In this document: positions 23,898-46,862 of the stretch, piece after piece
Layout: each line of letters begins with the position of its first letter
Numbering within the stretch: the first letter of the stretch is position 1
Assembly: GCA_002922725.1 (NCBI GenBank)
Contig: PNEW01000006.1
Coordinates: 1 to 47,199 of the forward strand
DNA from: Verrucomicrobia bacterium Opi.OSU.00C
Lineage (GTDB): Bacteria; Verrucomicrobiota; Verrucomicrobiia; Opitutales; PNEW01
Direction: 5' to 3'
Length of the DNA: 47,199 nt
Notes under the pieces: generated by a model
What the model was told of the DNA's origin: nothing
Seen by the model: the letters and a program-made list of their open reading frames with translations, nothing else
The model's database searches: none
Program-made: the position numbers and the translations under genes

Positions 23898-25301
23898 ATG
23901 ACATCCTTACTTAAAAATTGTCTAGTTTGCACTACACTATTAACCGGATCTGTCCTTTGTTTGATTGCGGCACCTGAAGGACAGGAAGTGTTCACAGACT
24001 TTGAAAATATCCCTGATGATTCAAACATGTTTTTCACTGTAGGGACACCTCCATTTACCGCTCTTTTTGAATATGGCGTTGCTGGCGATGGGTTATTAGC
24101 AACTCAACTTGCCCATACACCAACTCATGTTTGGTCTATACTTAATGGGGTCACAGGGAGTATAACTTTTGAAACTCCAGCTCACACCGTTGAATTTTAT
24201 GCAGCAAACTTAATTGGTGGTGATGGAACAATAGAAGTATATGACACCCATAATCAACTACTGATTTCTGTATCAAATTTACCACAAAGGATTTTACCCG
24301 AAGATAATCCTCAGTTTATTACATTTAATGCACTCAGTCTAGGAGCGCCTAATGGTATTAGTAAAATACTTCTTATAGATGATCCTATTGTAAGTTTTGG
24401 AATAACTCAAAGTCTAACCGCAATCGATGATTTTGGTTTCACTCCTTTACGAGGGGAAGGTGCTGAAGGAGTCGTGCTTGACGGGAGTGGTGATACTGTA
24501 GGAAGCGATATCCAACACCCTAATGGTAATATATTTGATCAGGTACTCCTAACAGGGGAAAGTGTTAGTGTTCGTGCGGGTATGAATAAAATAACCCGAG
24601 TTTCATTTATTGATGAAAATGACGATATTGTTCAAGCAGAGTTCTCAGGGAGTGGATCCCTAACTATTAACCTAGATTCCTCAACTTTTAGTGGTCAGGC
24701 ATTACCTTTGAAATATAATCAAAATGTCAAATATGTTAAAGGGCGGGCCAGTTTTGTAATTGAAAATACAGATATCGATACCTTTTTTAGCTTTTTCAGT
24801 GTAGGTACTATCAATGCGGTGAATCAGGCTCTTTTCCCGGCTGGTGAAGAATATAACGCTCAAGCGAATGCGGCATTATTAGAAATAATTAATTCAACAG
24901 CAATGGGAGCAATTAATTGTGCAAACACTATATTTACTGGATCAAGTGGAAAAATTGGTATTGATGCACGTGGTGTTCCAGTTGGGATACGTGCTACTTT
25001 AGGTGATATAGAGGCTACTGATAGTGCAAATCCAACTCTTATCGTTGGTGAAAGTTCTTTTACTGTAGCGGGAAACAATCAAGGAATGAGAATTACAGGA
25101 GGTGATTTATATCAAAGTAATGGAGGTTCAGTTGCTGTTTCACCAAGTGGATCGACGGTGGGTGGTTTTTCTACTTTAATTTCGCAAAATAATTTTAAGT
25201 CGGATGGAACCGCATTACCAACACAAAGTATCAATTCAAAATTTGTAAATGAAGATGGTGTGGAGATATTTATTATCGTGGTTGAAACAACGGTGAATTA
25301 A
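23898..25301 (+). CDS. Secreted hypothetical protein, 467 aa
   Basis: N-terminal signal MTSLLKNCLVCTTLLTGSVLCLIAAPEG; beta-rich, Gly/Ser/Asn-rich body; no family recognised. Confidence 0.7.
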   Translation: MTSLLKNCLVCTTLLTGSVLCLIAAPEGQEVFTDFENIPDDSNMFFTVGTPPFTALFEYGVAGDGLLATQLAHTPTHVWSILNGVTGSITFETPAHTVEFYAANLIGGDGTIEVYDTHNQLLISVSNLPQRILPEDNPQFITFNALSLGAPNGISKILLIDDPIVSFGITQSLTAIDDFGFTPLRGEGAEGVVLDGSGDTVGSDIQHPNGNIFDQVLLTGESVSVRAGMNKITRVSFIDENDDIVQAEFSGSGSLTINLDSSTFSGQALPLKYNQNVKYVKGRASFVIENTDIDTFFSFFSVGTINAVNQALFPAGEEYNAQANAALLEIINSTAMGAINCANTIFTGSSGKIGIDARGVPVGIRATLGDIEATDSANPTLIVGESSFTVAGNNQGMRITGGDLYQSNGGSVAVSPSGSTVGGFSTLISQNNFKSDGTALPTQSINSKFVNEDGVEIFIIVVETTVN

Positions 25302-27190: not shown

Positions 27191-28345
27191 TTATATGGCA
27201 GAACCAGTATAATAGATCCTTGGTACGCGTTTAGTTATAGAACAAAATACTTCCCAAGGTATAGATAATGCCCAATTACTAAAGGTTTTAACATCTATAT
27301 TTTGATTTCCCTGTGTTCCTATGAATGTAACAGAATCTCCACTTTTTATATTCTCTAAATTCGTAATATCGACGATTGTTTGATCCATTGTCACATTACC
27401 AAGAATAGGACATCGTTGCCCATGTATTAGGACGGAACCTTTGTTACTTATTGCTGTTGGAATTCCGTCACCATAACCTGCTGTAATTACAGCAATGCGT
27501 GAATCACGTGATAAAATATGAGTGCGACCATAACTAATTCCAGTTCCCGAAGGTAAGTCTTTTACTATGCTAACACGACTGTGGAAACTCAGTACAGCTT
27601 CCACTTTGAGTTTTGAAAGTAAAGATTCGAAATGCGGTAGGACACCAAATTGGAGTAAACCAACACGTACGGCATTAAATAGATCATCATTTTTAAATGA
27701 TTCTAGTCCAGCGCTATTATCCGCGTGGATGAGTAACCTTTTAGGGTCGAATCCTGGTAATCCTCTAAGTGTTTGTAAAAATAATTTCCTTTGTTTATTA
27801 GTGAATTGAGGGTCACTATCTGCGCTAGAAAAATGAGTATAAATCCCTTCAAGGTTCATATTTGGGTTTTCTTGTATTAATTTATAAAGATCAAGTGCTT
27901 GTTCGTACCATACTCCTAACCGTCCAAGACCAGTATCAATTTTTAAATGAACGGCGATTTTACGTTTATTTCGCTTTCCTAGTTTAGAAAAACGTTTGAC
28001 TTCTTCTTCTGTCGATACTGTTGGGATTAAGTTATATTCTATAATTTGCTTATCTTCTTCTGGTAGGGTAGAACTTAATAGCAAGATTGGCCAACCAGAT
28101 CCTATTTCACGTATTGCTGCACCCTCAAGAAAATTGGCTACGCCAAATAGATCAGCACCGCAATGCATGAGACGAGTAACTGTCTGTGCCATACCGTGCC
28201 CGTAAGCATCGGCTTTAACTACCGCAATATATCGAATATGAGCAGGTAATGCTGATCTTATAAGCTTTAGATTACGTTCTAATGCAGAAAGATCAATTTC
28301 TACCCAGCAACGGCTTTGTTGCCTTAATACAAATGATTTGCTCAT
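27191..28345 (-). CDS. alr: Alanine racemase
   Basis: AVVKADAYGHGM PLP lysine motif; LKIDTGLGRLGV; ISYGRTH; GYGDGIPTAISN; LGNVTMDQTIVD. Confidence 0.94.
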   Translation of the reverse strand: MSKSFVLRQQSRCWVEIDLSALERNLKLIRSALPAHIRYIAVVKADAYGHGMAQTVTRLMHCGADLFGVANFLEGAAIREIGSGWPILLLSSTLPEEDKQIIEYNLIPTVSTEEEVKRFSKLGKRNKRKIAVHLKIDTGLGRLGVWYEQALDLYKLIQENPNMNLEGIYTHFSSADSDPQFTNKQRKLFLQTLRGLPGFDPKRLLIHADNSAGLESFKNDDLFNAVRVGLLQFGVLPHFESLLSKLKVEAVLSFHSRVSIVKDLPSGTGISYGRTHILSRDSRIAVITAGYGDGIPTAISNKGSVLIHGQRCPILGNVTMDQTIVDITNLENIKSGDSVTFIGTQGNQNIDVKTFSNWALSIPWEVFCSITKRVPRIYYTGSAI

Positions 28346-29633: not shown

Positions 29634-31074
29634 TTAAGAATACTTTCTGCGAAGATTTGTAGAGGGAATACCTAATTCTACCCGATATTTAGCTACAGTC
29701 CTTCGTGCGATTTTAATATCCCGTTCAGCAAGTATTTTTACTACTTCTTGGTCACTATAAGGTTTAGACGAGTTTTCAGAGTGAATTATATTCGCGATCC
29801 GGTCTTTAATTGTGGTATTAGAAATAGCTTCACGACCTTCCGCTTGGTAGCCAGAGGTAAAAAAGTATTTAAAAGGTAAAACTCCTTGGGGTGTATCAAT
29901 GTATTTATTTGCGATGGCGCGACTCACCGTTGTTTCATGTACTCCTACTACATTAGCAATTTGATTCATTGTAAGCGGTCTAAGGTGTGATACGCCTTTT
30001 TCAAAGAAATCAATTTGGAAATTAAGTATTTTTCGTGTTATTCGCTCTATCGTCTTTTGTCTTTGCTCGATTGAACTTATCAGGAATTTCCCTGCTCTAA
30101 CTTTATCCTTGATATATATTTTCTCAGTAGATGATAGTTTACCTTTGGCAATTAGATCCTTATAGGTTGACGATAGTCTTAATCTGGGAATATAGTCATT
30201 ATTCATGACAATGGCCCATGTATCACCATCTTTTTCAACTTTTACATCGGGAACAACAACTAGATTATTGTCATCGCTAAATCTGCGACCGGGGGCCGGG
30301 TCAAGTGAAGCAATTTCTTTAATAGCATCTTCAACAAATTCAACAGTTACGTTTGTTTTTTTTCGCAATTTCTGGAATACGACGTCGTAAAAGAAGCTTA
30401 AATTGATTTTTTATAATATCAGCTGCTATAGTTTTCTCTCTACCTTGAATTTTGAGTTGTGTGAGGAGACATTCTTGTAAGTCAATACTTCCAATACCTG
30501 GTGGGTCGAGATTTTTGAGTAGCTTGTGCGCCTCTTGTAAGCTACTTAAGGAGAGTGATGACATGAGTCCTATGTCAGGGATTGAAATAGTAAGAAAGCC
30601 GTTATCATCGAGACTTCCAACAAGATACTCTAATGCTTTCATTATTTCCTCAGAAGCGTCAGAAAGTTCTGCTTGACGAACAAGATATTCTTGAAGAGAT
30701 ATTTCGCTAGTAAGTGAATCAAAAAGGTGCTGACGACGATCTGCTGTTTCAGAAGAATAACTTCCCCCTTCTAATGAGTATAATTCAGCCCAATCTTCTT
30801 CCACATGACTCAAAACCTGAAAGTCATCACTAAATTCTAATTCTTCTTTGGAAGAGGGTTTATCCATATCTTCATTCGTACCATTTGACCCTTCGATACT
30901 AATTCCTTCAATGGGTAATTCTTCAAGGGCTGGATTATTTTGTAACTCTTCTACAATAACATTACGTAATTCGAGTGCTGGTACCTGCAAAATTTTTAGC
31001 GATTGCCGCAATTGCGGAGCTAAGACCATATTTTGGGTCTGTTTCTGAACCTGATGAAATTCTTGTGTACTCAT
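29634..31074 (-). CDS. rpoN: RNA polymerase sigma-54 factor, frame broken at T8 (30356-30363, A8 on the coding strand)
   Basis: N-terminal ORF: QLRQSLKILQVPALELRN...RRIPEIAKKNKRNC*. C-terminal ORF: NVTVEFVEDAIKEIASLDPAPGRRFS...TVSRAIANKYIDTPQGVLPFKYFF...ARRTVAKYRVELGIPSTNLRRKYS (RpoN box). A7 restores one frame. Confidence 0.93.
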
Positions 31075-32243: not shown

Positions 32244-32561
32244 ATGATTGTATTAACAGAAAATGCAGCTACGCGTATTGAGCAAATAAGATCTGAAGTT
32301 GCCGATGATAGTAAGTATCTTCGCTTATCTGTAAAGACTGGTGGGTGTTCTGGCTTAGAATATGGCATGTCATTTGATTATAAAAAAGATGATGATATTG
32401 TAGAAGAAAGTCAGAATATTAAATTCATCATAGATGTTAAGAGCATGGTTCACCTTGATGGATGCCGTGTGGATTTTGATGATGGATTAAATGGAAAAGG
32501 TTTTGAGATTCAGAATCCCAACGCACAAATAACTTGTGGTTGTGGTAAATCATTCAACTAA
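32244..32561 (+). CDS. A-type iron-sulfur carrier (ErpA/IscA family)
   Basis: VKTGGCSGLEYGMSFD ... FEIQNPNAQITCGCGKSFN. Confidence 0.92.
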   Translation: MIVLTENAATRIEQIRSEVADDSKYLRLSVKTGGCSGLEYGMSFDYKKDDDIVEESQNIKFIIDVKSMVHLDGCRVDFDDGLNGKGFEIQNPNAQITCGCGKSFN

Positions 32562-32735: not shown

Positions 32736-33572
32736 ATGAAGTTTTATAAATATCATGCTTTAGGGAATGATTATTTAGTATTGGATCCTGAGAATACAAA
32801 AACAGTTCCTAATAATAAAAATATTCGTCGAATTTGTCATCGTAATTATGGGCTGGGTTCGGATGGAATCCTTTATGGTCCAGAAAATAGTAATATAGGG
32901 GATTTTGGTTTACGCATCTTTAATCCTGATGGTAGTGAAGCAGAAAAAAGTGGCAATGGACTACGAATCTTTGCGCGTTACCTATTGGATTGTGGGCGAG
33001 TTTCAAAAACTCCATTTACCATATCTACAGTAGGCGGATTAGTCACTTGTCAAATCCATGAAAATGGGAACCTAATCACTGTGGATATGGGAAATGTTAG
33101 TTTTAATAGCGATAATATACCTGTAACTGGGACTTCTCGAGAGGTAATAAATGAAGCTATCGTATTAGAAGGTAAAGAATATAAATATTCTGCTGCTACT
33201 ATTGGAAATCCACATTGTATTTTACCACTTAGTGAAATATCAGAAAAAACAACAAAATATCTTGGACCTATTCTTGAAAATCACCCTCTATTTCCCAATC
33301 GAACAAATGTGCAATTCTTGAAGGTTATAAATCGAAAGAATATTCAAATTGAAATTTGGGAACGTGGGGCAGGCTATACATTAGCTTCCGGCAGCAGTAG
33401 CAGTGCAGCCGCTGCTGTTGCACATAGATTGGGGATGGTTGATAATGATGTTACTGTGCACATGCCAGGGGGACATATAATGATCCATATCGGTGAGAAT
33501 TTCTCGATAACAATGATTGGGCCGGTGACATATGTTGGTATAATGTTATTTGATGAAGAAGCACTGAGGTAA
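32736..33572 (+). CDS. dapF: Diaminopimelate epimerase-like protein with both expected catalytic Cys replaced by Ser
   Basis: YHALGNDYLVLD; FNPDGSEAEKSGNGLRIFARYL (canonical ..CGNG..); GNPHCIL; ERGAGYTLASGSSSSAAAAVA (canonical GAGET.ACG.GA). Confidence 0.8.
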   Translation: MKFYKYHALGNDYLVLDPENTKTVPNNKNIRRICHRNYGLGSDGILYGPENSNIGDFGLRIFNPDGSEAEKSGNGLRIFARYLLDCGRVSKTPFTISTVGGLVTCQIHENGNLITVDMGNVSFNSDNIPVTGTSREVINEAIVLEGKEYKYSAATIGNPHCILPLSEISEKTTKYLGPILENHPLFPNRTNVQFLKVINRKNIQIEIWERGAGYTLASGSSSSAAAAVAHRLGMVDNDVTVHMPGGHIMIHIGENFSITMIGPVTYVGIMLFDEEALR

Positions 33573-33599: not shown

Positions 33600-34178
33600 A
33601 TGTATACAAAAAAAAGTTTAGTAGAAATATCTCATGAAATGGCTGAGACCCTCATAAATAAAGGGGATAAAGTTATAGATGCTACGGTTGGGAATGGCTT
33701 TGATACATGCTTTCTAGCTGAACAAGTTGGAAACAAAGGTCATGTTTTCGGTTTTGATCTTCAAGAACAAGCAATTAAAAATACTCGTAAATATTTAAAA
33801 AATATTGGCGTTCTTGACCGAGTGACTCTCTTTAATGTAGGACATGAATCGATGTTTCAATATATACCAAAGGTATATATTGAAGAAATTAAAAGTGTTT
33901 TTTTTAATCTAGGATACCTTCCTGGATTTGTAAACTCAAGTATCACTAAACCTGAAACAACTCTATTAGCACTAAATATGGCATGGCGACTGATTTCAAA
34001 TGAAGGGTTTATTAGCATTATTTACTACCCAGGTCACTCAGGGGGTGAAGAAGAATCCCAGTGCGTCAAATCTTGGGTATCCAACAATAAAACGAAATAT
34101 ATATATTATGAATTTAATAGCCAATCGAAAAATAGGCCGGGATGTTTTATTATTGGGAAGTATCCATATAGCAGTTAA
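33600..34178 (+). CDS. YtqB/MnmM-like class I SAM-dependent methyltransferase
   Basis: KVIDATVGNGFDTCFLAEQVG; VFGFDLQEQAI; FFNLGYLPG; IIYYPGHSGGEEE. Confidence 0.82.
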   Translation: MYTKKSLVEISHEMAETLINKGDKVIDATVGNGFDTCFLAEQVGNKGHVFGFDLQEQAIKNTRKYLKNIGVLDRVTLFNVGHESMFQYIPKVYIEEIKSVFFNLGYLPGFVNSSITKPETTLLALNMAWRLISNEGFISIIYYPGHSGGEEESQCVKSWVSNNKTKYIYYEFNSQSKNRPGCFIIGKYPYSS

Positions 34179-34211: not shown

Positions 34212-36039
34212 TTATTTGATAGGTAATACTTTATCAACTATATCATTTTTAATATGAGAAATAAAATTATCGAGGCTATAACTACCTTCATAATTTTTGT
34301 TAACTCTTGATCTTACGGTTACATTTTTTGCTGCTTCTTCTTGTGTACCAACAATCAGGGTGTAAGGTATTTTGTCAATTTCTGAACGCCTGATTTTTGC
34401 ACCTAGTTTATCAGAAGCATAATCTACACTTGTTCGAATTTTACCATTTTTTAAAGAGAGTGGATATATTGTTAGCGTAACATTGAAGATTATCATTAAT
34501 CGGAAGAATACGAACTTGTTCAGGTGCAAGCCATGTAGGGAAATTACCTCCAAAATGCTCAATTAGCAGACCTACAAATCTTTCCATTGATCCAAATGGA
34601 GCGCGATGTATAATTACTGGACGGTGTGGTTTATTGTCAGAACCAATATAATTAAGATTAAAGCGTTTAGGGAGGTTGTAATCAACCTGCACTGTACCCA
34701 GTTGCCAATCACGTCCAATTACGTCTTTAATTACAAAATCTATTTTTGGTCCATAAAAAGCTGCTTCTCCTTGCTCTTCTTCGAAATCAACACCTAATGT
34801 TTGTGCTACTTGACGTAGGTTATTTTCGGCTTTGTTCCACAATACTGAATCACCAGTATATTTCGTGGAATCAGGATCGCGTAAACCAATTCTGACTCGA
34901 TAATCTAAAATACCTAGGGTGCGTAGAACAACTTTAACGACTTCAATACTAGCTTTAATCTCATTGCCAAGTTGGTTGTCGGTACAGAAAATATGTCCAT
35001 CATCTTGAGTTAACCCGCGTACCCGAACCAAACCATTTAGTTCACCAGATTGCTCCCAACGATAAACTGTACCGAATTCAGCGAACCGAATTGGTAAATC
35101 TCGATAAGAATGAGGTTGCGCATCAAAAAGTTTTATATGCATCGGACAATTCATTGGTTTTAATAGGTAACCATCAATTTCTCCTTCTTTTAAGCGATTG
35201 GCAAGTTGAGCGCAGGAACAATTCTCTGCAGCCATCATTTGAATCACGTCATCTTCAATAATAGGTGGATATTGGCTTTCTTGATAATAGGGGAAATGGC
35301 CTGACGTACGATAGAGCCCAAGTTTACCTATATGGGGAGTGAATACCTCATGATAACCCTGTTTAGTCAGCTCTTCACTAATAAAATTCTGTAGTTCTTT
35401 TCTGATTATTGAGCCGTTAGGTTGCCAAAGAATGAGTCCTTGACCAACACTATCATCAATATGAAATATATTCATATCTTTTCCCAATTTGCGGTGGTCA
35501 CGTTTTTTTGCTTCTTCCAACAGCTCCAAATATTGATTAAGTTCTTGTTTAGTTGGGTAGGCAGTTCCATAAATTCTCTGGAGTTGTTTATTGTTCTCAT
35601 TCCCGCGATAATAGGCTCCAGCAATGGAAAGTAACTTAAATGCTTTAACTTGCTTAGTATATTTCACGTGTGTTCCTGCACAGAGGTCTATAAATTCACC
35701 ATTCTTATAATATGTTATAACTTCATTTTCTGGGATATCTGCAAGACGTTCTAACTTATAGGGTTGATTTTGTTTTTTAAAAAATGTGACCGCTTCCTGA
35801 CGATCAACTTCTATACGAACAAATGGTTGATTTTCTTTGATTATCATTTTCATTTCGGATTCGATATTAATCAAATCATCAGCGGTCAAATTATGATCAA
35901 GATCTATATCATAGTAGAATCCATTAAATGTCGGAGGGCCGATATCTAATTTAGTATCAGGCCAGATTCGTTTTATTGCGGCAGCCATAATGTGAGCTGC
36001 AGAATGGCGAATTTCTTCTAAAGGTGTCATTGATTTCAT
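34212..36039 (-). CDS. thrS: Threonyl-tRNA synthetase, frame broken at T6 (34447-34452, A6 on the coding strand); no N-terminal TGS domain visible
   Basis: Main ORF: RHSAAHIMAAAIKRIWPD, DLCAGTHV, PMNCPMHIKLF, RVRGLTQDDGHIFC, HRAPFGSMERFVGLLIEHFGGNFPTWLAPEQVRILPI. Anticodon-domain C-terminus [33 protein letters not shown] is in the second ORF; A5 restores the frame. Confidence 0.94.
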
Positions 36040-38879: not shown

Positions 38880-39614
38880 TCATTTTTTACGGGGACGTCC
38901 ACGACGAGGTTTTTCGATAATTGGTTCCTCACCCTCTATTACATCTTCATTCTCATTAGTGTCATCATCCCACTTCATTGTCTCATCTTCTTCGATTTTT
39001 TCTTCAATTACATCAATATCTGGGAATTCTTCGAGTTCTTTTTTTTGAGTCGTTTCTGAATCATCACCAACATCTAACTCAAATCCATCTGGTACATATT
39101 CAAGGATAGCTGTAATTTCGTTAAAGAAGTGAACTGCACGACCTTCAAAATAATCATTATTCTGGCGTGCGTTAATCTCTTCCTCCAACTCATCGATTGT
39201 TAAGTTTTCATCGAATTCAATAAGATCATTTAATAATTTAACACGGGATTTTGTTATTTGATCAAGAAAGTCAGCGTATGGACCTTTTTCTTCATCCATT
39301 ATCTCAGGTAGAGCGAAAAGTTGTTCTTCACTTTCCAAAAGAGAATCGCGCACCCGTACCAGACGTATAAGACTATTTTTTTGTTCTTTTTCAATGCGAA
39401 ACTTAAAAAAGGCTTCATTAATTATTTCAGGATCAAATCCATAGTCCTTTAAGGATTCGCATAAATCAATTATATGATTAATTTGATTAGGATCGATGAC
39501 TGAAAGTCCATCCATATCCCAATGAATCGCATTACTTATTTTCTCTACCCACCAATTCATATCATCACCAAGGCGGATAATACACCATTCTAGTTGTGAA
39601 CTTGATTTGACCAT
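38880..39614 (-). CDS. Hypothetical protein with acidic linker and C-terminal AT-hook-like motif
   Basis: 244 aa; Asp/Glu-rich region followed by EKPRRGRPRKK at the extreme C-terminus. Confidence 0.65.
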   Translation of the reverse strand: MVKSSSQLEWCIIRLGDDMNWWVEKISNAIHWDMDGLSVIDPNQINHIIDLCESLKDYGFDPEIINEAFFKFRIEKEQKNSLIRLVRVRDSLLESEEQLFALPEIMDEEKGPYADFLDQITKSRVKLLNDLIEFDENLTIDELEEEINARQNNDYFEGRAVHFFNEITAILEYVPDGFELDVGDDSETTQKKELEEFPDIDVIEEKIEEDETMKWDDDTNENEDVIEGEEPIIEKPRRGRPRKK

Positions 39615-41168: not shown

Positions 41169-42695
41169 ATGGAAGAGAAATCAGAGCACGGTATCACCCA
41201 AGGTAATAACCAACCTTTGGACTTAAGTGAATTATCAGGGATAACTATGGGGCCAGTTTGGAGTGAATCAGAAAGCTCTACAACTAAGGATAAATTTAAT
41301 AAAAAAACAGAAAATAAAGCCCCTTTATCAGTTTCGAGGAGAATTATTCGCCGTGACCGTAGACCAAACGTAGTTCGAGGGGGCGAAAAACGTGCGGAGA
41401 GTAGACCACAATTTCAACCAACTGTAGATGCAATCTTTTATCCGGAAGATATAGCTTTTAAAACATTGATAAAAGCAATTCGTACATCTAATAAAACTTA
41501 TGAGTTATTTGATATCACCCGGCTTTTTCTCGCTAAGTTTGATCGTTTTATTACAATGGTCAGACCTGCAGTTATAAAAGATAAGAATTCAGAACGTTTA
41601 TATATAGCTTTAGCTGATGGGTGTCCATTTGAAAGTAAAGAGAAAGCATTTGATTACTCTATTGAAAATTACATTGATGAATATTTTAACATAGAGACAG
41701 AGACAATAGATCCACCTAAAGGTAATTTTACTATGGTCAATCGTTGTTCTTTTACAGGGGAATTACTAGGGCCACCAAATTATCATCGGTATCAAGAATT
41801 GATTGTACAACACCACGCTATTCGTCTACCAAATATACCTTATGATTCTTTTGTTTCAGGAATTGAAACATTAAAGGAACAGAAAGTTATTGAAGAATGG
41901 CTTATTAAGATGACGAAACAAACGAACTATATATTGAAGAATGCTGATAATTCGGGTGAATCATTAATATTTGATAATTTAAAAAGTGCATCAAAATATT
42001 TGTACGATAATAAAATTAATAAAATTGTAAAACCAGTTTCTTCAATGCGTATATCTGGAAAATTACTATCGTCTATGCCAACTCAAAGTATGATTCGACG
42101 TTCAATTGAGTTTCATCTTGAAGCTCAGCGACGATTTCCTCTTGAAACGGCTAATCATTTGCGAGGTCGATTGCGGAGATTGAAAATTAATGTTTATAAG
42201 AAAGGATCAAGAGGTATTTCCTATATCTGTGCCATTAAGCGTAATTTCCAGATAGAAGGCCAGAATTTTGCGGATTCTATTCAAACTTTAATAAATTTTA
42301 TAGTGAAAACACCTCATGTCAAAATCTCTGATTTAGAGGGATCATTTCTACAAATTAATAAAAGAGAATTGACTAATCAGGATTCTCAAAATGATGAAAG
42401 AATTCATAGTGAATCTGTTGACCTCCCGTCTGAAGTCAAAAAAAGATTACACCTTATGCGCCAGGATTTATTCTGGCTAATATCAGAAGGATACGTTGTT
42501 GAGTATGAAGATGGCAGCCTTTATGCTTCCCCTCCACGGTCAAATATAAATGATTTATCACGGTCTGTAACTGGTGATACAGCTGAGTTAAAAATAAAAG
42601 AAAGCTCCTTTAATTCACCCTCAGAAGTAGCTCTGTCATCAAATCGGATCAAGACAAATAGTGAATTGAAAGCCATTGATAAAAGTAAAGATTAG
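41169..42695 (+). CDS. Conserved-looking hypothetical protein, 508 aa
   Basis: Low-complexity basic N-terminus (RRIIRRDRRPNVVRGG), then a structured region with NRCSFTGELLGPPNYHRYQELIVQHH; normal codon usage and length. Confidence 0.75.
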   Translation: MEEKSEHGITQGNNQPLDLSELSGITMGPVWSESESSTTKDKFNKKTENKAPLSVSRRIIRRDRRPNVVRGGEKRAESRPQFQPTVDAIFYPEDIAFKTLIKAIRTSNKTYELFDITRLFLAKFDRFITMVRPAVIKDKNSERLYIALADGCPFESKEKAFDYSIENYIDEYFNIETETIDPPKGNFTMVNRCSFTGELLGPPNYHRYQELIVQHHAIRLPNIPYDSFVSGIETLKEQKVIEEWLIKMTKQTNYILKNADNSGESLIFDNLKSASKYLYDNKINKIVKPVSSMRISGKLLSSMPTQSMIRRSIEFHLEAQRRFPLETANHLRGRLRRLKINVYKKGSRGISYICAIKRNFQIEGQNFADSIQTLINFIVKTPHVKISDLEGSFLQINKRELTNQDSQNDERIHSESVDLPSEVKKRLHLMRQDLFWLISEGYVVEYEDGSLYASPPRSNINDLSRSVTGDTAELKIKESSFNSPSEVALSSNRIKTNSELKAIDKSKD

Positions 42696-44813: not shown

Positions 44814-45290
44814 ACTACTATCAATGTTAAATATACCTTGAAGGCAATCGAAATTGAATGTCCATCTTGTAGTGATTACGGATATTATTCGTCTGAATAT
44901 TATAATTATTTTTAAAAAGGTGAAATGGATAATTTAGACGAACAGTATAAAATATACTAATTAAAAGAGATTAGATCATTACCTATTTACTTCATTTTTG
45001 AATATATTTTGTAATTTTAAGTTTTAAAATATGGATATGATTTAGCCTTAGGTGGTAGGCCATAAATATTGGTAGTCGACAATTATAATTATTGACTCAA
45101 ATATTTTAGCATGAGTTTAAGTGAATGGTTGCTGCAGCTTTTCTATCAGATGTATAATTGGAATGCAGTTATGATAAGAAATAAAGGACATTAGGTATAA
45201 ATATGAGTCAGAATATTTATATTATGGATATGACCTATTATCTTTTATATAATTCTATTATAACTTGTGAATATTTTACTATTCGTATTC

Positions 45291-46862
45291 ATGGCTAAAA
45301 ATTCCGTAAATATTTTATTTGTAGTAAGTGCAACTGTAGGATCACGAGTTTTAGGTTTATTGCGCGATATATTGATTTTTGCATCATTTGGTACATCAGC
45401 CCTAAATTCGGCATTCATACTTGCGTTTACATTACCTAATTTATTTCGCCGTTTATTAGGTGAAGGAGCTTTAAATGCGGCCTTATTACCAACTTTTACG
45501 GAAGAATTAGAAGAAAATGGGAAAAAAAGTGCATTTATATTTCTTAATCAAGTGATAACACGGGTATTAATCATTCTTCTCATTATTATTTCAACACTGG
45601 GACTTACTCTTTTTGCCGTAGGATTTGTACCTGGACTCAATGATCGTTGGTACTTGGGGATTGAATTAGGTATAGTTTTGTTGCCTTACCTCGTATTGGT
45701 TTGTTTAGCAGCTATTATACATACGAGTTTGAATGTATTAAAACGATTTACTTTAGCTGCTTTATCACCAATTTGGCTCAATCTTTCCATGATTATTTCC
45801 TTAGGTATATTTGGGGTTTATTTGGCAGAATCTTCAATTGAGAAAATAACTTATTTATGTAGTGGAGTTATTATAGGAGGTATAATCCAACTTGTTTTAC
45901 CAGCGATTTTACTGAATCGAAATGGTTGGTATCCCAAAATGAATCTTGATCGAACAAAGAGAATAAATGAACTCACTTCACTATACATGCCTGGACTCGC
46001 TGGGGCTGCAATTTATCAAATAAATATTGTTGTAACACGTTTTCTTGCGTTTCACTTAGATGATACAGCAGTAGCGATTCTCTACTTGGGAAATCGGTTA
46101 CTTGAACTTCCTTTAGGAGTATTTGCTGTTGCTATAACAACAGTAATATTTCCATCTTTATCGAAATCTGCCGTACGTAATAATTTTAAAGAATTTAATC
46201 TTTTATTTCATCAAGGGGTAAGGATGATAATTGCCATTACAGTTCCAGCAGCAACTGGGTTAATTATACTACGTGAACCGATTCTTACTCTCCTTTTTGA
46301 GTGGGGAATGTTTGAGTCATATGACGTTAAGCAAACAATGCCTATAGTTTCTATCTTGGCTATTGCACTACCATTCTATGCAATCGGAGCATTTACCACA
46401 CGTGGATTTTATGCTCTGAAAGACACAACGACTCCATATCGACTGGCAAAAATAAACTTTATCGTTAATTTATTCTTTAGTATAACCCTTATGTCCTTTT
46501 TAGGTTTAATTGGCTTAGCTATTGCTAATGTGTTAGCGTCAGTAATTCACACTTTTTCTCTTTATTGGATAATAGGGAAAAAGATACCGTCATTAAATTT
46601 TGGTAATATCACATTATCTGTTATAAAAATAATCTTCGCTAGTTTTATTATGGGGTACTCAGTAGGATTGATATGGAGTGGGGTGAACGACAAGGGATTA
46701 GATCCAAAATTGGCTGCAATGATTGGAGTATTTATTCTTATTCCGAGCGCGGTAATATTTTACTTTATTTTACTTTGGGCTACACGATTCGATGAATTGA
46801 AAGAATTATGGGCATTTATAGTTAATGTATTAAAAAGGGAAAAACTTAAAGAGGGTAATTAG
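45291..46862 (+). CDS. murJ: Lipid II flippase MurJ
   Basis: SRVLGLLRDILIFASFG; LPNLFRRLLGEGALNAALLPTFTE; FYALKDTTTPYR. Start set at 45291. Confidence 0.94.
   Translation: MAKNSVNILFVVSATVGSRVLGLLRDILIFASFGTSALNSAFILAFTLPNLFRRLLGEGALNAALLPTFTEELEENGKKSAFIFLNQVITRVLIILLIIISTLGLTLFAVGFVPGLNDRWYLGIELGIVLLPYLVLVCLAAIIHTSLNVLKRFTLAALSPIWLNLSMIISLGIFGVYLAESSIEKITYLCSGVIIGGIIQLVLPAILLNRNGWYPKMNLDRTKRINELTSLYMPGLAGAAIYQINIVVTRFLAFHLDDTAVAILYLGNRLLELPLGVFAVAITTVIFPSLSKSAVRNNFKEFNLLFHQGVRMIIAITVPAATGLIILREPILTLLFEWGMFESYDVKQTMPIVSILAIALPFYAIGAFTTRGFYALKDTTTPYRLAKINFIVNLFFSITLMSFLGLIGLAIANVLASVIHTFSLYWIIGKKIPSLNFGNITLSVIKIIFASFIMGYSVGLIWSGVNDKGLDPKLAAMIGVFILIPSAVIFYFILLWATRFDELKELWAFIVNVLKREKLKEGN

Follow-up and report, generated by a model that had tools for sequence, protein, structure and literature searches.

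The window analysed here, a stretch of 47,199 nucleotides from contig PNEW01000006.1 of Verrucomicrobia bacterium Opi.OSU.00C (Opitutales), contains a dapF homolog that departs from canonical diaminopimelate (DAP) epimerases at both catalytic cysteines. The protein scores 249 bits against TIGR00652, the NCBIfam equivalog for DapF (cut-off 114.65, also passed by other members of the clade described below), and 187 bits against PF01678 in Pfam, with both domains covered. Its match to NF038284, the bifunctional DapF/glutamate racemase, is below the curated cut-off (75.9 against 350 bits). Its alignment to DapF proteins of known structure covers the full length, and no gaps fall across either motif in the comparison with DapF of Haemophilus influenzae, Arabidopsis thaliana and Anabaena. 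The first motif reads EAEKSGNGLR and the second ERGAGYTLASGSSSS; because the alignment is ungapped there, Ser72 and Ser218 occupy the positions of catalytic Cys73 and Cys217 of H. influenzae, and the canonical cysteine pair is absent. Judged from its sequence, the open reading frame (ORF) is thus a full-length DapF homolog with serine at both catalytic cysteine positions. The initial annotation had claimed these two replacements, and codons AGT and TCC are confirmed (Table 1), although its coordinates, 32943-33412, span the stretch between the motifs and not the full gene. It had also described the conserved glutamate of GAGET as replaced by tyrosine. Tyr214 is indeed present, but the glutamate in question is at H. 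influenzae position 213, where the sampled Cys/Cys enzymes have E, I, V, A or N, a site less conserved than the DAP-binding Glu208-Arg209 pair.

The window protein has many relatives. A scan of GTDB genomes gave 67 loci, to which whole-genome searches added others. All scan loci with readable motifs carry EAEKSGNG or a close variant, and ERGAGYT(L/F)ASGSS where that end is present. The non-redundant set comprises 161 Ser/Ser, 56 Cys/Cys and 3 Ser/Cys proteins, with no Cys/Ser combination among them. In the tree a single branch, with a Shimodaira-Hasegawa-like approximate likelihood ratio (SH-aLRT) of 97, sets the Ser/Ser proteins apart. When 13 marker columns were removed, the topology held and the split from Cys/Cys proteins kept 98% support, while support for separating the Ser/Ser from the Ser/Cys group dropped to 59%. 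Clade members found in the phylum search share 48-66% identity with the window protein, as against about 27-38% for the others, and their serine codons are of both the TCN and AGY types. The divergent subfamily that had been proposed is borne out by the homolog search and tree suggested for it, with 161 proteins on a single branch, which by sequence constitute a distinct and widespread clade. It is almost universal in Opitutales, usually as the lone DapF-family protein, and extends to other Verrucomicrobiota, SAR324, Chloroflexi, Planctomycetota, Pseudomonadota, desulfobacteria and cyanobacteria. Six cyanobacterial genomes (Nostocales and others) hold a canonical Cys/Cys DapF plus a Ser/Ser paralog, and the two loci inspected revealed no evident shared gene neighbourhood for the latter. 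The Anabaena DapF that has been studied biochemically is of the Cys/Cys type (PMC12039745). We found no description of a natural Ser/Ser DapF in open-access papers.

The AlphaFold model of the window protein (mean predicted local distance difference test, pLDDT, 93.5) has the DapF fold with its two pseudo-symmetric domains. Its best match in the PDB is 9mro, the closed, ligand-bound Anabaena DapF, with a template modelling (TM) score of 0.91. In the model, Ser72 and Ser218 lie directly before helices 73-85 and 219-231, where the cysteine pair of DapF sits. The residues that hydrogen-bond an inhibitor have been defined by structure in Anabaena DapF (PMC12039745), and the DAP contacts, in H. influenzae numbering N11, N64, G74, N75, N157, N190, E208, R209, G218 and S/T219, are invariant across the Ser/Ser set except for gaps at alignment ends; the DAP-binding Glu208-Arg209 pair is intact in the window protein. 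A relocated cysteine was considered as a substitute and rejected: the only near-invariant cysteines, C34 and that of GNPHC (160 and 145 of the 161), are off the acid/base positions and occur in many Cys/Cys enzymes too.

Other residues change together with the serines. In H. influenzae numbering, K72, S73 and I79 switch in the N-domain, and Q192, E205, I206, Y213, S217 and S220 in the C-domain. In family f26, three Opitutales with reduced genomes retain serine on the N-domain side, yet their C-domain has Cys217, Gly220 and Glu192 and no Tyr213; the N-half of these mosaics groups with Ser/Ser proteins and the C-half with Cys/Cys proteins, on long branches. Because Tyr213 tracks Ser217, it is the first candidate for a helper residue. 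A single Ser/Ser member, from a 0.8 Mb genome, has Arg in place of Tyr at this position and is possibly decaying. The simplest interpretation is that the active site of the clade was re-tuned around the serines.

The genomic setting speaks to function. Members of the PF01678 family occur in 110 of 131 Opitutales genomes, nearly always as one protein. Apart from families f8 and f22, where the DapF is Cys/Cys, and f26, where it is Ser/Cys, all copies read are Ser/Ser; one f8 genome has a Ser/Ser and a Cys/Cys DapF. The genome of the window has one PF01678 protein. A search for a second, cysteine-containing dapF, which the initial annotation had suggested, proved decisive and gave an answer that differs by lineage: none in this genome (assembly 82.6% complete), almost none in the order, one in the cyanobacteria. 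DapL yields LL-DAP, LysA takes meso-DAP, and Ddh forms meso-DAP directly. In six genomes that are 99-100% complete, DapL and LysA both exceed their curated cut-offs, the sole DapF is Ser/Ser, and Ddh gave no match; the Ser/Ser protein is therefore the only recognised link between LL- and meso-DAP in these six. Gene order at some loci is in keeping with this, as in dapF(SS)-dapA-dapB (L018), dapF(SS)-lysA with dapB and dapA close by (L056), and lysA-dapF(SS)-dapL (L059) in a Clostridia metagenome-assembled genome that also has two Cys/Cys DapFs. Several reduced genomes of 0.8-1.1 Mb have kept a Ser/Ser DapF.

Alternation with Ddh points the same way. Among 100 Opitutales genomes, with size-reduced ones left out, strong Ddh matches were found in 6 of 8 lacking DapF and in 6 of 92 possessing it (Fisher p = 2e-5), a contrast that loses some of its force because the genomes are related rather than independent and the DapF losses perhaps amount to two to three events. 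The six genomes with strong Ddh and no DapF family member appear to be cases of non-orthologous replacement of the epimerase step. A Ddh bypass was also tried as a general explanation and discarded, strong matches being confined to 12 of the 131 Opitutales genomes. Twelve further Ser/Ser-bearing genomes, reached via other loci, have no Ddh, and all twelve have dapA.

The MurE of the window's own genome carries DNPR, a motif characteristic of MurE enzymes that add meso-DAP. In the Opitutaceae, DAP has been detected chemically in Opitutus terrae and Lacunisphaera, sacculi have been isolated from a Lacunisphaera strain, and DapF is listed in the pathway (PMC5303756). The Opitutaceae dapF loci read in this analysis are Ser/Ser.

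We propose, with a probability of roughly 0.7, that the gene encodes a functional LL-DAP to meso-DAP epimerase belonging to a distinct Ser/Ser clade. What is seen directly is the sequence, its conservation and co-variation, the fold, the sole-copy status, the alternation with Ddh or Cys/Cys DapF and the operon context. That the protein epimerises DAP is the firmer part and seems to us quite probable; that the serines would then be the proton carriers is likely, if less securely so. Of the readings offered by the initial annotation, a Ser/Ser mechanism is the most likely, whereas another substrate or a loss of DAP function is not favoured.

The ordinary DapF fold is retained along with its two pseudo-symmetric half-sites and substrate contacts, and one serine stands at the N-terminus of each active-site helix, flanking the reacting alpha-carbon in place of cysteine. 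In the mechanism that we envisage, the following would then apply. Helix N-termini and backbone amides, which lower the pKa of the cysteines in canonical DapF, could likewise lower that of the serines, one of which would be the general base and its partner the general acid. On the C-domain face, Tyr214, Ser221 and Gln193 may have arisen with Ser218 and tune it; on the N-domain face, Lys71 and Ile78 may have done so with Ser72. On balance we lean towards a thiol-free epimerase, in which two serines, joined on one face by a co-evolved tyrosine, perform the 1,1-proton transfer in what would be the sole DAP epimerase of most of an order, and the Ser/Cys mosaics suggest that half-sites might be exchanged singly.

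Several points weigh against this proposal. We found no measured activity for any member of the Ser/Ser clade in the open-access literature. DapF catalysis is ascribed to a thiol-thiolate pair that has no basic residue close by, and Cys-to-Ser substitution serves to hinder DapF catalysis for crystallography (PMC12039745). In HisR, a racemase of the DapF fold, Cys-to-Ser mutants are strongly reduced in turnover (PMC11602996). The chemical detection of DAP in Opitutaceae does not distinguish the isomer (PMC5303756). In the 82.6% complete assembly of the window's own genome, LysA, DapB and Ddh were not found, nor was a clear DapL, and lysine-cluster neighbours are missing at most of the searched loci. 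Two Opitutales genomes lack both DapF and Ddh; one (G123) is 88% complete, and the other (G075) yielded nothing in the searches for LysA and aminotransferases either. Finally, cyanobacteria keep a Cys/Cys DapF alongside, and the Ser/Ser protein there may therefore serve another, specialised role.

The serines might instead merely bind or orient the substrate of a DAP epimerase in which Tyr214 acts as one base and another residue or an ordered water as the second. This is a mechanistic variant of our proposal, compatible with its claim of activity. Of the 161 Ser/Ser proteins, 160 have Tyr214, and the three sequences with Ser73 and Cys217 lack it, which speaks for this variant. The symmetric base/acid geometry, though, needs residues at both helix N-termini, where the model puts the serines; the N-domain face has no known counterpart of the tyrosine, and Lys71 is lost in some members. 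We consider this variant unlikely.

It is rather unlikely, too, that the Ser/Ser protein works as an epimerase, racemase or lyase on some other DAP-like compound or amino acid, with meso-DAP supplied by an unrecognised enzyme. Relatives racemise histidine or O-ureidoserine, the cyanobacteria hold their Ser/Ser copy next to a canonical DapF, and several pocket positions are altered (Y6, Y13, Q192 and E205). These observations are set against DAP-contacting residues that are all invariant, complete genomes in which the protein is the sole DapF beside DapL and LysA and Ddh is absent, the alternation with Ddh and Cys/Cys DapF, and operons with dapA-dapB and lysA-dapL.

Less probable still is a DapF that has lost catalysis and is retained for something other than enzyme activity, as in the binding of RppH by E. 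coli DapF, for which structures of RppH-DapF complexes exist. Loss of both acid/base thiols would fit, as would the greatly lowered turnover caused by Cys-to-Ser change in a relative (PMC11602996). In a dead enzyme, however, the substrate-binding residues would be expected to drift, yet they are invariant over several phyla; the protein is the sole DapF of DAP-making organisms, and it is replaced by Ddh, which has just the product in common with it. Errors in sequencing or assembly and gene decay are ruled out. Two other window genes, split at poly-A runs, suggest that indels occur in this assembly, but the dapF frame is intact, and 161 non-redundant homologs share both serines, which are encoded by a mixture of TCN and AGY codons; these homologs come from isolates as well as independent assemblies.

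Set beside known systems, the Ser/Ser clade is closest to canonical DapF (TIGR00652, EC 5.1.1.7; H. influenzae 1GQZ, Anabaena 9MRO), with which it has in common the fold, length, DAP contacts, acid/base positions at helix N-termini and pathway context. It differs in the serine pair, the tyrosine at position 213 and the co-varying K72, I79, Q192, E205 and S220, and in forming a separate branch, at about 27-38% identity to the Cys/Cys enzymes sampled within the phylum. The proline racemase superfamily (4-hydroxyproline epimerase, trans-3- and cis-3-hydroxyproline dehydratases) has a DapF-like fold, and in some of its members one cysteine is replaced by serine or threonine. Those single substitutions accompany dehydration, not epimerisation; in the Ser/Ser clade both positions are serine and the DAP contacts are kept. 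The same substitutions have been made in the laboratory, in H. influenzae DapF C73S (2Q9H) and C217S (2Q9J) and in Fusobacterium nucleatum HisR C67S and C209S. These are single changes in a thiol-adapted site that hinder catalysis, whereas the natural clade has both serines plus many co-evolved changes. DapF-like racemases (the histidine racemases CntK and HisR, O-ureidoserine racemase and PddB) likewise have the DapF fold and are cofactor-independent, a likeness that for CntK, O-ureidoserine racemase and PddB is drawn from the literature. HisR has a cysteine pair and a substrate other than DAP (PMC11602996).

The existence of the Ser/Ser clade is surprising because Cys-to-Ser change cripples related enzymes in the laboratory. 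Cofactor-independent racemases and epimerases are usually explained by a thiol/thiolate pair, and this textbook mechanism may not be universal. Annotation of DapF, accounts of its mechanism and the design of covalent inhibitors, such as aziridine DAP analogues that alkylate the two cysteines, all treat this pair as essential. If our proposal is correct, it would offer a new view of how a proton with a pKa of about 29 is removed and a natural system for comparison on the Cys-to-Ser question, and it would predict bacteria insensitive to thiol-directed DapF inhibitors. A whole order, plus scattered members of other phyla, appears to make a building block of cell wall and lysine with a Ser/Ser DapF, and active-site rules that demand cysteine would wrongly score meso-DAP synthesis as missing across Opitutales.

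No functional link is evident between dapF and its neighbours in the window (IscA, MnmM, ThrS, CysS and a kinase). Farther off, alanine racemase and MurJ provide a peptidoglycan-making context.

Table 1. The Ser/Ser dapF gene, its marker residues, natural mosaics and other features of the window
Feature	Position	Strand	Basis or remark
Ser/Ser dapF homolog, 278 aa	32736..33572	+	TIGR00652 249 bits; PF01678, two domains; AlphaFold model
Lys71, codon within dapF	32946..32948	+	alignment; clade marker (155/161), missing from some reduced genomes; Cys/Cys DapFs almost always have Met here
Ser72, codon AGT	32949..32951	+	alignment, model; at catalytic Cys73 (H. influenzae), just before helix 73-85
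Tyr214, codon TAT	33375..33377	+	H. influenzae position 213; 160/161 Ser/Ser proteins, missing in three Ser/Cys proteins
Ser218, codon TCC	33387..33389	+	alignment, model; at catalytic Cys217 (H. influenzae), just before helix 219-231
Natural Ser73/Cys217 mosaics: L224 (G117), L228 (G031), L231 (G126)			Opitutales family f26, 0.9-1.0 Mb genomes
IscA/ErpA-type iron-sulphur accessory protein, upstream gene	32244..32561	+	profile match
MnmM-type tRNA methyltransferase, downstream gene	33600..34178	+	NF053511 182.7 bits
Alanine racemase, peptidoglycan D-Ala supply	27191..28345	-	TIGR00492 327 bits
MurJ lipid II flippase	45267..46862	+	PF03023 306.5 bits
rpoN (sigma-54)	29634-31074	-	two overlapping ORFs
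thrS	34212-36039	-	split
Sizeable ORF	23898-25301	+	no Pfam match
Sizeable ORF	38880-39614	-	no Pfam match
Sizeable ORF	41169-42695	+	no Pfam match

Two other genes of the window are interrupted. In rpoN the frame shifts near a poly-A run (gcgaaaaaaaacaaac, minus strand), and this split could reflect an assembly indel, real decay or poly-A slippage. The catalytic part of thrS stops in frame right after a poly-A run (ctctttaaaaaatggtaa), and its anticodon-binding domain runs on in another frame, making this the second poly-A frameshift in the window.
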